Positions 858 through 28,190 of a stretch of 35,456 bases of DNA are shown piece by piece. Each line of letters opens with the position of its first letter. The stretch's first letter is position 1. Both the position numbers and the translations under genes were made by a program. A model generated the notes under the pieces. It made no database searches. It saw only the letters and a program-made list of their open reading frames with translations, and was not told the origin of the DNA. This DNA is from Methanothrix sp. (lineage in GTDB: Archaea; Halobacteriota; Methanosarcinia; Methanotrichales; Methanotrichaceae): positions 1-35,456 of the forward strand of contig NZ_JAOAKP010000016.1 of NCBI RefSeq assembly GCF_026419855.1. Reading direction: 5' to 3'.

Positions 858-1247
858 ATGAAGGAGTCCTATGTAATGAAGTTCGACTCTAGGGATATGC
901 AGGTTGTCGAGATCCTTCGGAGCTTGGGGGTTCCCAGAAAGGTCTCGAACATGCTTGCTTACCTGGCAAACGTGGAGGAGGCCACGTCTCGAGACATCGA
1001 GAGGGGATCTGATCTTAGGCAGCCAGAGGTGAGCATAGCCCTGCGAACCCTGAGGAAGCACAACTGGATCGAGGAGAGCGTGCGCAGAAACGATGGCACT
1101 GGCAGGCCAGTGAAGGTTTACAGGCTCAGAGCATCGATAGACGAGATACTGAAGTACTACGAGGAGGAGAAGCTCAAGGAGGCGAACAGAGCCATGGAGC
1201 GGATACAGAAGCTCAGAGCTCTGCTCAGCCAGAGTGGCTCCTCATAA
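858..1247 (+). CDS. Small winged-helix transcriptional regulator (TrmB/ArsR-like)
   Basis: This 129-residue protein has a winged-helix fold signature. A helix-turn-helix region around residues 20-65 includes NVEEATSRDIE and LRQPEVSIALRTL. It is followed by a basic wing (GTGRPVKVYRL) and a C-terminal charged helix (about 95-125) suited to dimerisation. No ligand or metal motif is visible, so the signal it senses is unknown. It is clearly paralogous to the protein encoded on the minus strand at 27765-28190, sharing LRQPEVS, VEEATSR and KVYRL at the same spacing. ATG 858 is preceded by gaggga; an in-frame ATG at 876 is preceded by aaggag at 9-base spacing and is an equally reasonable start. It stands alone, followed by a 378-bp gap. 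Confidence 0.8.
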   Translation: MKESYVMKFDSRDMQVVEILRSLGVPRKVSNMLAYLANVEEATSRDIERGSDLRQPEVSIALRTLRKHNWIEESVRRNDGTGRPVKVYRLRASIDEILKYYEEEKLKEANRAMERIQKLRALLSQSGSS

Positions 1248-22156: not shown

Positions 22157-22367
22157 CACTATAGCACAGCCGGAGAGTCGTCTGATAGTGCTCATGTGAT
22201 GAATTGAGGAACATGGCGGCTCGGTGAAACCAGCTGTTCTCTTGAACTGCCAGATGGATTGGTATGCATCTGATAGCCGCTGGACCAGAATCCAGCATCT
22301 CAGGCTTTATCAGACAGGCGGAAAGGTTAATACGTCAGCAGCCTTCATCGGGATGAGAGGTGTAGGA

Positions 22368-23546
22368 TTGTTTTTAGTAGGAGAGGCTCTTATCGGGAAG
22401 GAGCCCGAGGTAGCTCACATCGATCTGCTTATCGGGGATAAGAATGGTCCGGTGGGCATTGCGTTTGCGAATGGACTCACGCAGCTATCAGCCGGGCACA
22501 CCCCGCTTCTCTCTGTCATAAGACCGAACCTGCCGGCAAAGCCATCGACGCTGATAGTTCCAAAGGTCACTGTGAAGAACATGGAGCAGGCCGCTATCAT
22601 ATTTGGTCCAGCCCAGACAGCTGTGGCTAAGGCAGTGGCAGACTCGGTGGAGGAGGGTGTGATCCCAAAGGAGCGTGCTGAGGAGCTGGTGATCATAGTA
22701 TCCGTGTTCATCCATCCTGATGCTAAGGACTACGATGCGATCTACAGATACAACTACGGCGCGACGAAGCTCGCCATACAGAGGGCGATGGAGGGGTTCC
22801 CGGATGTCGATAAGGTTCTCTACGAGAAGGACCGATCTGTGCATCCTGTGATGGGCTACAGGGTCATGAGGCTCTGGGATCCGCCGTATCTGCAGATAGC
22901 GTTCGACATCGTCGATCTCGCGGAGGTGAGGCGTGTCCTCTCTGAGATCCCCGGAAGCGATCATGTGCTGATTGAGATCGGCACACCGCTGGTGAAGATG
23001 CACGGTGTTCAGGTCGTGAGGGAGGTGCGGAGAGCAAGGCCTGGATCGTTCGTCATACTCGATCTGAAGACCCTGGACACGGGGAACCTCGAGGTCAGGC
23101 TTGCTGCTGATGCATCTGCAGACGCAGTCGTTATCTCCGGACTGGCGCCCAGGAAAACCATAGAGCTTGCGATCAAGGAGGCTAAGAAGACCGGAATATA
23201 CTCCATAGTGGACATGCTAAACGTGAGCGATCCGGTTGAGGTTCTCAGGAGCCTTTCGGTGCTCCCTGATGTTGTTGAGCTACACAGAGCGATCGATATG
23301 GAGAACAGCGAGCATGCATGGCAGAGCATACCTGATATCAAATCTCTCGGAAAGAGGCTCCTGATTGCTGTTGCTGGCGGGATCAGGGTGGATAACGTCG
23401 CGGATGCGCTCAGGGCCGGTGCAGACATAATCGTGGTCGGCAGGGCGATAACGAGATCGAAGGATGTCAGAGATATGACGGAGCAGTTCCTGAGCCAGCT
23501 GAAGAAGAGCGAGATCGATCAGTACAGGATCATGACAGATTTCTGA
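22368..23546 (+). CDS. fae-hps: Bifunctional formaldehyde-activating enzyme / 3-hexulose-6-phosphate synthase
   Basis: The 392-residue fusion has an N-terminal Fae domain (about 1-165) with [21 protein letters not shown], where His17 matches the family catalytic histidine, then [16 protein letters not shown] and [24 protein letters not shown]-terminal Hps TIM-barrel domain (about 170-392) contains [23 protein letters not shown] and [10 protein letters not shown]. In methanogens the fusion links ribulose-5-phosphate formation from hexulose-6-phosphate to tetrahydromethanopterin-bound formaldehyde. The frame is open from 22224, but TTG 22368 gives the standard N-terminus and the usual fusion length, with gaggtgtagg (22356-22365) as ribosome-binding site. 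The stop overlaps the next gene (TGATG). Confidence 0.92.
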
Positions 23547-24880: not shown

Positions 24881-24949
24881 ATTGACGCTTGAGCCAGCAA
24901 ATCCAGCCTGCCTGCTGGGGCTTCTGCCATCCCAGCGCCCTGGAGGGGT

Positions 24950-26107
24950 ATGACTGAATACAGGAGAATCGCGGAGCTCCTGAGCTCCGGGAGCAGAGAC
25001 AGAATCAGCGCCCTTGCATCTCTGCTTAGATCATTATCTAAAGATGAGATATGCCCAGCGGTGCGTCTCCTGACAGGGGGCATAAGGCCGAGCTGGAGCC
25101 CCGGGGAGTTCACCGGAAGGGATGTGATGAGGGGTGTGCTCTTCTCGATCTCCGACCGGCTCGAGGGCAGTGATCTGGGGGAGATGGCTGAGCATGCAAT
25201 CCGCCACAAGCGCCAGACTGGCATAGGCGAGTTCCCGCTCGACATACGCTATGTCCACAGCGTCCTCAACAGGGTCATGAAGTCGGAGGGGCGTGGATCT
25301 GAGGGGAGGCGCAGGTCCATGCTGACAGGTCTCCTCCTCGCATCAGAGCCGCTCGAGGGAAGGTGCATAGCGCTCACAGCGGCCGGGCTCAAATCCGGTA
25401 TCGGACCGAGAACGATCGCAGCAGCGATAGCGAAAGCATTTGGAGTGGACATCGAGAGGGTATGGGCAGCATACTCGAGGCTGCCGGAGATGGGGTTGGT
25501 GGCAGAAGCTGCATCCTCCGGTTCTCTGAATGGTATAAGGCTCACGCCCGGTATTCCTTTCGTCATGATGGAAATCCCTACGGTGGAGATCGCATCTGAG
25601 CATGGTTTCGTTACCAGATCGGATCACATCTGCTATGCGAGAAGAGGCATCAGGGTTCAGCTCCATGTATCCGGGGAGAGTTCCTGGCTCTTCACCACCA
25701 GGCGGAGGGATATCAGCCATCTTGTAAGCGGTCTCAAGACAGAGATGAGCGGATCTGCGATGCTCGAGGGAGAGATCCATGCGGAGGGTGGTCGCGGTCA
25801 GATCACCCGGCTGATCAACCGCAGAAGGAGCTCGAGGCGGTCATCGATCAGGCCCTCGATTGTCATCTGGGATGCGGTCTTTATCGATGGCAGTGAGATC
25901 ATCGATCTGGAATACTCGGAGAGGCTCCAAATGGCATCAGAGGTCGTGCGGAAGATGGACGGTGACTCTCTCGATGTCTCCGTTGTGGAATCCCTGGACC
26001 CTCCGAAGGCTCTCCAGAGCAATCTTTCATTCATGGTGCGCTCCGTATCTGCCCCATATCTTCTGGGTAGGAGGAGCAGGGTGGACATTCAGGTTGCGCC
26101 TCGTTGA
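24950..26107 (+). CDS. Degenerate ATP-dependent DNA-ligase-like protein lacking the catalytic lysine
   Basis: The 385-residue protein is colinear with the N-terminal and adenylation domains of archaeal ATP-dependent DNA ligases. Residues 1-190 resemble the ligase helical DNA-binding domain. At motif I, where KYDGxRVQ(I/L)H is expected, it has ARRGIRVQLH (230-239): the nucleophilic Lys is Ala230 and the Asp is Arg232. Motif III-like LEGEIHA (272-278), motif IV-like IWDAVFIDG (306-314) and motif V-like FMVRSVSAPYLLGRR (361-375, Lys replaced by Arg) remain, and the OB-fold domain is absent. It cannot self-adenylate by the known mechanism. The uninterrupted frame suggests a conserved non-catalytic role. 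ggaggggt lies just before the ATG. It ends 167 bp before the convergent presenilin-like gene. Confidence 0.72.
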   Translation: MTEYRRIAELLSSGSRDRISALASLLRSLSKDEICPAVRLLTGGIRPSWSPGEFTGRDVMRGVLFSISDRLEGSDLGEMAEHAIRHKRQTGIGEFPLDIRYVHSVLNRVMKSEGRGSEGRRRSMLTGLLLASEPLEGRCIALTAAGLKSGIGPRTIAAAIAKAFGVDIERVWAAYSRLPEMGLVAEAASSGSLNGIRLTPGIPFVMMEIPTVEIASEHGFVTRSDHICYARRGIRVQLHVSGESSWLFTTRRRDISHLVSGLKTEMSGSAMLEGEIHAEGGRGQITRLINRRRSSRRSSIRPSIVIWDAVFIDGSEIIDLEYSERLQMASEVVRKMDGDSLDVSVVESLDPPKALQSNLSFMVRSVSAPYLLGRRSRVDIQVAPR

Positions 26108-26274: not shown

Positions 26275-27126
26275 TCAGAACGGCCGCACGCCCGATAGCA
26301 TGCATCCTGTGAGGAATCCGATCACAGCTCCGCCGTTGAGGAATGGGAGGCCCGCCTGCGGTTTCTCGCCAGATGTCATTGCGAGAACCATGAATCCGAT
26401 GTATGTCCCGAGCATTGCGCCGATCGCCGGCAAAGCGACGCCGAAGATGGCATAATTCACTGGTAGAGACCAGTTCGCGGAAACTACCAGCACCGATGGC
26501 ATTATCGCGTCCCCCAGACCCAGGAAGTAGGCGCCCCTCGCATCTGCACCCTGGACACGGAAGCTGTAGCTCCTGCTCTTCGGGATTACGAAGAGCAGAG
26601 GCGCCCTTATTTTTATCACGCTCTCAGCCAGCGTAACCATGTGCTTTGTTTTGTAGACTGATATTGCATCGTAGATAGCAAGAATGGAGAGGAGAACAAG
26701 CACGGGCAGGGTCTCCATGCTGATCCCGAAGAGAACGCTGACCCCTGCGCTCACGAGAATTCCCAGCGAGTCAACCACGTACCACTCCGGATGGTATATC
26801 ATCGCAAGCATTAGGGCGATGGAGATCGAGAAGGCAATCATCCACGGAAGGTAAACGCTGAGAACGTAAAAGACGCTGAGGAAGAGGCAGAGCTGAATTG
26901 TCCCGGAGATGAGCCAGCTCCAGCCAAGCTTCGTTGCCAGAAGCAGGAATCCTGTGAATATCAGCACCATCACTATGTAGAGTATGGCGTTCGACGTCGC
27001 GGACGGATCCTCAAAGACCCGAACCTCGCTAGCCGAGAGCGCGGGCATCATGCCCAGCGAAAGGATCTGAACCACGATTATTAGAAGAAGCATCCACAGC
27101 ATGGGACGCTCTGCTCGTCTTCCCAT
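26275..27126 (-). CDS. Archaeal presenilin homologue (intramembrane aspartyl protease)
   Basis: This 283-residue polytopic membrane protein has about nine hydrophobic segments. It carries the GxGD-protease signatures: YD with Asp153 (LAIYDAISVYKTKH), GLGD with Asp206 (AYFLGLGDAIMPS), and GLPFLNGG (259-266) at the position of the PAL motif. It is predicted to cleave transmembrane helices in the membrane, like the crystallised archaeal presenilin homologue; the substrates are unknown. ATG 27126 is chosen over an upstream ATG at 27270. The TATA box at 27147-27157 lies about 26 bases upstream, giving a leaderless mRNA, and the extra 48 residues are not family-like. Confidence 0.87.
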   Translation of the reverse strand: MGRRAERPMLWMLLLIIVVQILSLGMMPALSASEVRVFEDPSATSNAILYIVMVLIFTGFLLLATKLGWSWLISGTIQLCLFLSVFYVLSVYLPWMIAFSISIALMLAMIYHPEWYVVDSLGILVSAGVSVLFGISMETLPVLVLLSILAIYDAISVYKTKHMVTLAESVIKIRAPLLFVIPKSRSYSFRVQGADARGAYFLGLGDAIMPSVLVVSANWSLPVNYAIFGVALPAIGAMLGTYIGFMVLAMTSGEKPQAGLPFLNGGAVIGFLTGCMLSGVRPF

Positions 27127-27146
27127 GGTGAAGAGATGCAGCTCAT

Positions 27147-27157
27147 GTTTTAAAAAG
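27147..27157 (-). promoter_or_regulatory. TATA box of the presenilin-like gene
   Basis: Read on the minus strand the sequence is ctttttaaaac, centred about 26 bases before ATG 27126. It supports leaderless initiation and rules against the longer frame starting at 27270. Confidence 0.6.
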
Positions 27158-27455
27158 TCTCTCCCCGAAGATATGCTATGAAGCACGCTGAAATCGCAGC
27201 GCTGAATATTCGAGGCGCATAGTGGTCGAATCGTCGGAGAGATGTGTCCGGACAACCCAACCAGCGGCAATCGACTTCGCTTCTTTCTGCAAGGCTACCG
27301 CTCCGTCGAACCACATGGATGTGCCATGTAATCAGTTGTCATCCGAGCATAAAGGCATATTTTATAATTAATATCAACTCCATCGTTCTGTCCGTCCTTA
27401 AAAATAAGGATAAAACTTAATACAGTTGATGACATCTTAATTTCTGGTGGTGCTT
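27158..27455. other. Divergent intergenic region upstream of the microprotein gene
   Basis: About 300 bp of increasingly AT-rich DNA. tttataattaatatcaac (27361-27378) contains the recurring aattaatatcaac motif. aaaacttaata (27412-27422) is a TATA-like box placed about 35-40 bases before GTG 27456. No gene is seen. Confidence 0.45.
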
Positions 27456-27580: not shown

Positions 27581-27790
27581 TTGATATCTGTATCTGTGAG
27601 GATATTCGCTGATGTCGAGGCTGAGAGGCGGATCATGCTGCGTGAGGGGACCTCGTACTACGATCTTCTGGATCTCCTTGGCATAAACCCGGAGACCGTG
27701 GTTATCACGAGGGACGGGGTCCCTGTTCCATTTAACGACGTGGTGCTCCCAGGCGAGATCGAGATCATCCGGGTTGTATCTGCTGGCTAG
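27581..27790 (+). CDS. ThiS/MoaD-like ubiquitin-fold protein ending in Ala-Gly
   Basis: The 69-residue protein has the beta-grasp pattern of ThiS, MoaD and archaeal SAMP proteins: ISVSVRIFADVEAERRIML, SYYDLLDLLGINPETVVITRDG, then EIEIIRVVSAG. Such proteins are activated on their C-terminal Gly-Gly as sulfur carriers or protein modifiers. Here the end is Ser-Ala-Gly, so the usual penultimate Gly is Ala. Start TTG 27581 follows gagtagaggt; GTG 27596 is an alternative. The last 26 bases overlap the 3' end of the converging regulator gene. The role could be thiamine/molybdopterin/tRNA sulfur transfer or protein tagging; no E1-like enzyme is in the window. Confidence 0.78.
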   Translation: MISVSVRIFADVEAERRIMLREGTSYYDLLDLLGINPETVVITRDGVPVPFNDVVLPGEIEIIRVVSAG

Positions 27791-28190
27791 ATCCTTTTGG
27801 GCTGATCTTCGTGCTCAGTTCTCTCAGCCTCTGTATGCTTTCCATTATTTTTGCAGCTTCTCTCTTCTTCTCCTCCTCAAAGTGTTTTATGATCTCATCA
27901 AGGCTCACGGTCAGCCTGTAAACCTTCATGGGCCTGCCCTTGCCGTCTTTCTTGAGCTCCCTCTCCTCAACCCAGTTGTTCGCTCTGAGCACCCTCATCG
28001 CAACTGAGACCTCAGGCTGTCTCAGGTTTGAGCCTATCTCGATCTCCCTGGAGGTAGCCTCCTCAACGTTGGAGAGATATGTTATCATGGCAGCCACATT
28101 TCTGGGTATGCCCACGGATACAAGCGTCTCCACAAACTCGACATCCTTCTCATCAAGAACCCTTACTGAGAACTGTCTCATGCACATCAC
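27765..28190 (-). CDS. Winged-helix transcriptional regulator, paralogue of the gene at 858
   Basis: The 141-residue protein shares long near-identical segments with the regulator at 858-1247: NVEEATSREIE, LRQPEVSVAMRVLR, KGRPMKVYRL, and a C-terminal EEEKKREAAKIMESIQRLREL helix. A winged-helix DNA-binding domain with a dimerising helix is the likely architecture; no sensor domain is seen. The frame opens at GTG 28190 (MMCMRQF), with ATG 28187 and ATG 28181 as alternatives. A TATA box (28221-28232) lies about 40 bases upstream. Its 3' end overlaps the ThiS-like gene by 26 bp. It is divergent from hdrED across a 669-bp gap and could regulate it, but that is speculation. Confidence 0.82.
   Translation of the reverse strand: MMCMRQFSVRVLDEKDVEFVETLVSVGIPRNVAAMITYLSNVEEATSREIEIGSNLRQPEVSVAMRVLRANNWVEERELKKDGKGRPMKVYRLTVSLDEIIKHFEEEKKREAAKIMESIQRLRELSTKISPKGSSQQIQPG

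Follow-up and report, generated by a model that had tools for sequence, protein, structure and literature searches.

A catalytically degenerate, family-wide paralogue of DNA ligase in Methanotrichaceae, probably kept as a non-catalytic nucleic-acid-binding protein

Members of the archaeal family Methanotrichaceae carry a ligase-like protein, called here pseudoligase, whose lineage is conserved and under purifying selection although its catalytic residues have been lost, i.e., it is a pseudoenzyme. We regard it as very probable that this protein is catalytically dead but selected, and the reading that we prefer, somewhat less firmly, is that of a true pseudoenzyme kept as a non-catalytic nucleic-acid binder. 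DNA ligase is a housekeeping enzyme that cells cannot do without, and this family of methanogens is globally important. A fixed single-copy, apparently dead paralogue of such an enzyme in a whole methanogen family points to a use of the ligase scaffold other than catalysis.

The window, i.e., the whole stretch of DNA that was analysed, is contig NZ_JAOAKP010000016.1 (35,456 nt) of Methanothrix sp. GCF_026419855.1, whose genome of 1.9 Mb is 99.9% complete. The pseudo-DNA-ligase gene, recognised by profile matches and by its orthologues, occupies 24950–26107 on the forward strand as an intact frame of 385 codons (385 aa), running from the ATG at 24950 to a TGA that ends at 26107, and a Shine-Dalgarno-like GGAGG can be read directly at 24942–24946 (+), shortly 5′ of the ATG. 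The protein consists of a helical N-terminal DNA-binding domain (aa 1–190; 24950–25519, +), which is its more constrained half, and a degenerate adenylation (nucleotidyltransferase) domain (aa 205–385; 25562–26104, +), which keeps its fold.

The descent of this protein was studied using profiles and structural comparison. Its N-terminal domain matches PF04675 at 6e-14 (53 bits, cut-off 24.6), and the adenylation domain matches PF01068 weakly, at 3e-5 and 24.3 bits, slightly below the gathering score of 26.2; the orthologue L046 reaches 56.7 bits with the latter profile. In a sequence comparison with the PDB, archaeal ligases come closest (E 5e-23). The AlphaFold2 model, based on 36 orthologues, has pLDDT 89 and pTM 0.88, with a DNA-binding domain that is all-helical at high pLDDT, and its best PDB matches found by Foldseek are archaeal, then human ligases (E 1e-25), the TM-score over the query being up to 0.83 against archaeal ligases. 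A full-length member of the pseudoligases is also modelled well (pLDDT 90, pTM 0.77). The NCBIfam DNA ligase models LigA_Halo, PRK03180 and dnl1 gave 56–64 bits and did not reach their curated cut-offs of 217.8–830. Matches to PF04675 and PF01068, together with the fold of both domains, place the protein by descent among ATP-dependent DNA ligases. The sequence-only reading had described the frame as colinear with archaeal ligases across the DNA-binding and adenylation domains, and profiles, PDB matches and Foldseek agree with it; the possibility of a protein structurally dissimilar to ligases was also examined, and the fold proved to be a ligase fold.

The distribution of the pseudoligase was established in 37 genomes belonging to 11 genera of one GTDB family. 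Each of them contains exactly one copy, which is intact in all 37, single-contig assemblies included. A canonical ligase was detected beside it in all these genomes except G021, whose assembly gives only a partial weak match; in the host genome of the window the canonical ligase (L002, 557 aa) carries EWKFDGAR, EGVMLK and WLKIKP. In the phylogenetic tree, all pseudoligases are on one side of a branch with support 100/100, and the canonical ligases of the family form a second clade (100/100) inside the ordinary archaeal ligases. Because the pseudoligases stand on long branches, the duplication can be placed on the tree only approximately. A profile search in 295 genomes of the phylum yielded 442–543 bits for the pseudoligase family and at most 303 bits elsewhere and found no pseudoligase in other families of the phylum. 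Among the best 20 outside matches, 19 carry the canonical motif I according to a pattern, and the remaining one, L123, reads EYKYDGSR. A viral or mobile origin was also rejected, a scan of viral contigs with a single short pattern having found no relatives.

The gene neighbourhood was compared in 15 genomes outside the window's genus and in 6 genomes within it. Outside the genus, the pseudoligase gene is preceded in 15/15 genomes by a winged-helix gene (~100 aa) located downstream of ftsZ, and in 14 of them the two genes are −10 to +7 nt apart; for the fifteenth genome (L050) the distance was taken from a separate OB remnant, the main ORF likewise coming after the winged-helix gene. A radical SAM gene related to the PA0069/Rv2578c families comes next after the pseudoligase in 11/15 genomes, often with a 4-nt overlap, and the genes of Nop5, RPA, an RPA-associated protein and TopoVI-B are found upstream in several. 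The recurrence across genera of the order ftsZ–winged helix–pseudoligase, mostly followed by radical SAM, and the tight spacing of the two middle genes favour another explanation, according to which both joining and nick binding were lost and the protein is a transcriptional cofactor or regulator acting with the winged-helix protein encoded upstream, possibly with a tie to ftsZ and cell division. In the window's genus, however, the pseudoligase gene has moved off and now stands beside fae-hps and a phosphodiesterase gene, whereas in 6/6 genomes ftsZ and the winged-helix gene have stayed side by side at another place and the radical SAM gene lies at a third. The winged-helix gene is, in addition, widespread across the phylum without an adjoining ligase. 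The ftsZ–winged-helix operon is weakened as an indication of function because it is broken up in the window's genus; as an association it is supportive but not obligatory, and we consider the transcriptional explanation unlikely.

As for other genes in the window, a Fae-Hps fusion gene at 22224–23546 (+) lies upstream of the pseudoligase gene, and a gene of an archaeal presenilin/signal-peptide-peptidase-like protease at 26275–27270 (−) is convergent to it. Two paralogous MreA-like transcriptional regulators are encoded at 858–1247 (+) and 27765–28190 (−), and other genera have a related gene 5′ of ftsZ and the pseudoligase. A link to Ku/LigD non-homologous end joining was rejected: among 6 family genomes tested, all with the pseudoligase, Ku is absent from 3, so the two do not co-occur, and the data give no support to end joining with Ku as its role. 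Three Ku genes were found in G015 and none in G002, which belongs to the window's genus.

The catalytic motifs were compared in 37 pseudoligases and 37 KxDG ligases, the percentages given below being calculated from 36 aligned members. In the window protein, the alignment puts Ala230 and Arg232 into the motif I Lys and Asp columns, just as the sequence-only reading had it, and Gly233 is kept, so that the remnant A230-R231-R232-G233 replaces K-x-D-G at 25637–25648 (+). Motif III, LEGE (aa 272–275; 25763–25774, +), is retained in this member and in the window's genus. Motif IV is reduced to S360-FMVR364 (26027–26041, +), where Glu is gone and Lys is changed to Arg. The latter replacement had earlier been ascribed to motif V; it is real, but R364 belongs to motif IV (EGVMLK in canonical form). 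At the motif V position (26084–26101, +), the window protein has DIQVAP, D379-I-Q-V-A-P384, in place of WLKIKP, both Lys being replaced, by Q381 and A383.

In the family as a whole, KxDG is present in 0/37 pseudoligases. The motif I Lys column contains R in 19, K in 10, A in 6, V in 1 and L in 1 of them and has undergone at least 8 changes on the tree; the Asp column never contains Asp, the 10 Lys-keepers included. Retention among the 36 aligned members is 0% for motif I Asp, motif I Glu, motif IV Glu and both motif V Lys, and 3% for motif IV Lys. Hence the loss of Lys itself, which had been put forward for checking, is not fixed, but that of KxDG is family-wide, and for motif I Asp, motif IV Glu and motif V Lys the loss is fixed across the sampled members. 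The features by which an ATP-dependent DNA ligase is recognised as an enzyme, namely KxDG, motif IV Glu with motif V Lys, and an OB domain with motif VI, are lacking in the window protein.

These data bear on the explanation that the protein is a working, though unusual, ligase or nucleotidyltransferase, which would use Lys elsewhere as the nucleophile or would perform step 3 only, on DNA adenylated by the true ligase. Some ligases with a mutated motif I Lys are still able to seal pre-adenylated nicks, and the Lys at this column in 10/37 members as well as the motif III kept in the window's genus can be counted on the same side. However, no conserved Lys was found among the invariant positions of the pseudoligase family, on which ground a relocated catalytic Lys was rejected, and the instability of the motif I Lys column, along with the loss of motif I Asp, of motif IV Glu, of both motif V Lys and, in most members, of the OB domain, makes a working enzyme highly improbable.

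The OB domain was described in the earlier reading as missing, and this is correct for the window protein, which has neither the domain nor a remnant downstream, but not as a defining trait, since 7/37 pseudoligases (530–546 aa) keep it and 30/37 are without a full OB domain. In the 7 OB-bearing members, the RFPR block of motif VI is degenerate. OB remnants are found past the stop codon in G012 and G021, and in G023 the last OB part alone remains in frame; at least 7 changes in OB presence are needed on the tree. Most simply, therefore, the OB domain was lost several times independently, one of these times in the ancestry of the window's copy, from a pseudoligase that was originally of full length. 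The OB domain is dispensable and was lost repeatedly among pseudoligases. The remnant in G012 stands behind the stop codon of L050 (contig C25), and a further broken ligase-like sequence with stops lies on a separate contig of this genome (G012:C56:29556-31031).

Purifying selection clearly acts on the pseudoligase. Within the window's genus its dN/dS is 0.23–0.35, the canonical ligase of the same genomes having values 3–4 times lower (0.07–0.10), and the DNA-binding domain (0.13–0.23) is more constrained than the adenylation domain (0.28–0.59). Pairs from other genera gave 0.14–0.51, mostly 0.15–0.35, with the top values in the very close pair G009/G017. Comparison of synonymous and non-synonymous changes gave Fisher p from 9e-15 to 2e-23, and a stop-free frame of 385 codons is kept in 0–3% of simulated neutral lineages. 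The earlier claim that selection keeps this frame is thus borne out by dN/dS well below 1 and Fisher p ≤1e-14, and the opposite situation, intact KxDG in orthologues and a decaying copy in the window, was not observed. Moreover, in 15 columns the pseudoligases share, at 90% or more, a residue that is rare in canonical ligases, namely Y4, L11, P36, R39, L40, L106, R120, G127, L130, P179, P200, I289, N290, Y322 and R364, which argues for new constraint rather than residual conservation. A decaying pseudogene or an assembly artefact, with which the elevated dN/dS relative to the true ligase and the OB remnants after stops in two relatives would agree, was rejected as barely credible in view of the intact copies throughout the family, the selection tests and these family-specific conserved residues.

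Some of the changes concern the surface and the presumed contacts with DNA. Pseudoligases are mostly basic, with pI about 8–10 against 5.5–6 in canonical ligases, the exceptions being a few members with pI 6.3–6.7. Conservation columns and charge mark out an Arg-rich loop, TRLINRRRSSRRSSIRP (25805–25855, +; net charge +7), containing N290, which is invariant among pseudoligases and has Arg at the same place in canonical ligases. In the DNA-binding domain, R165, I166, E170, G171 and R174 (canonical numbering) are invariant in working ligases and changed in pseudoligases, so pseudoligases may not bind DNA in the way that a ligase does. The nucleotidyltransferase domain is the faster-evolving of the two domains, and part of its function may therefore be gone.

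Canonical ligases of the sister family f3 have a PCNA-box-like QxxFxxF. In pseudoligases, Q89 is invariant and the aromatic residue is missing, and in the canonical ligases of Methanotrichaceae shown, e.g., L002, the PCNA-box-like Gln is replaced, mostly by Pro. Judging from these sequences, a partition of the PCNA contact between the canonical ligase and the pseudoligase is possible.

In our opinion, the history of a non-catalytic nucleic-acid binder would be as follows. A paralogue of the replicative ATP-dependent DNA ligase probably lost its catalytic residues before Methanotrichaceae diversified and would then have been kept beside the working ligase. Its residues suggest that it should neither form ligase-AMP nor seal nicks. 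Binding of nucleic acid by this protein is fairly probable, and the most likely ligand would be nicked, gapped or end-containing duplex, held by the DNA-binding domain and the basic nucleotidyltransferase surface with its Arg-rich face; specificity for nicks or ends, which the sequence-only reading had put forward beside regulation of the true ligase, can be proposed only tentatively. The bound pseudoligase could serve as a placeholder or regulator that limits or times the access of the true ligase or marks breaks, with no strand joining. That this ancient family-wide pseudoenzyme binds nicks or ends as a dedicated, non-catalytic regulator of DNA joining or of chromosome and cell-division control is likewise a conjecture that we hold with less than even confidence.

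Homologues from Methanotrichaceae should not be tallied as ligases on the strength of matches to ligase domain models. The existence of cultured members of the family with complete genomes makes the role of the pseudoligase testable.

The open-access literature yielded no account of a DNA ligase that is inactive or a pseudoenzyme, whether in archaea or in Methanothrix, subscription journals being outside the scope of the search, and we know of no earlier description of a prokaryotic pseudoligase family of such kind. Duplicated replication genes, RFC and PolB, are reported for Methanosaeta in a review of archaeal replication, the passages of which seen here do not mention a ligase duplication (PMC3984812).

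Compared with archaeal replicative ATP-dependent ligases of the LigI type, known from Thermococcus, Pyrococcus, Archaeoglobus and Saccharolobus structures, pseudoligases have the same domain order and fold, and the full-length ones share the OB domain too. Unlike these enzymes, they are without KxDG, motif IV Glu and motif V Lys, are mostly basic rather than acidic, and are extra proteins, present beside a working ligase. The canonical ligase L002 of the same genome is homologous to the window protein, about 28% identical to it and of the same architecture, but its KFDG, EGVMLK and WLKIKP are intact and its dN/dS is lower, as given above. A second ATP-dependent ligase likewise occurs in several genomes of family f3, which is Methanosarcinaceae-like (L081, L083, L084, L086, L088 and L090); in contrast to the pseudoligase, it has intact KYDG, EGIIIK and WVKWK, forms a separate clade and, by its sequence, appears to be an active enzyme. 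Summarizing these comparisons, it may be concluded that pseudoligases belong to the ATP-dependent ligase superfamily as a lineage of pseudoenzymes.
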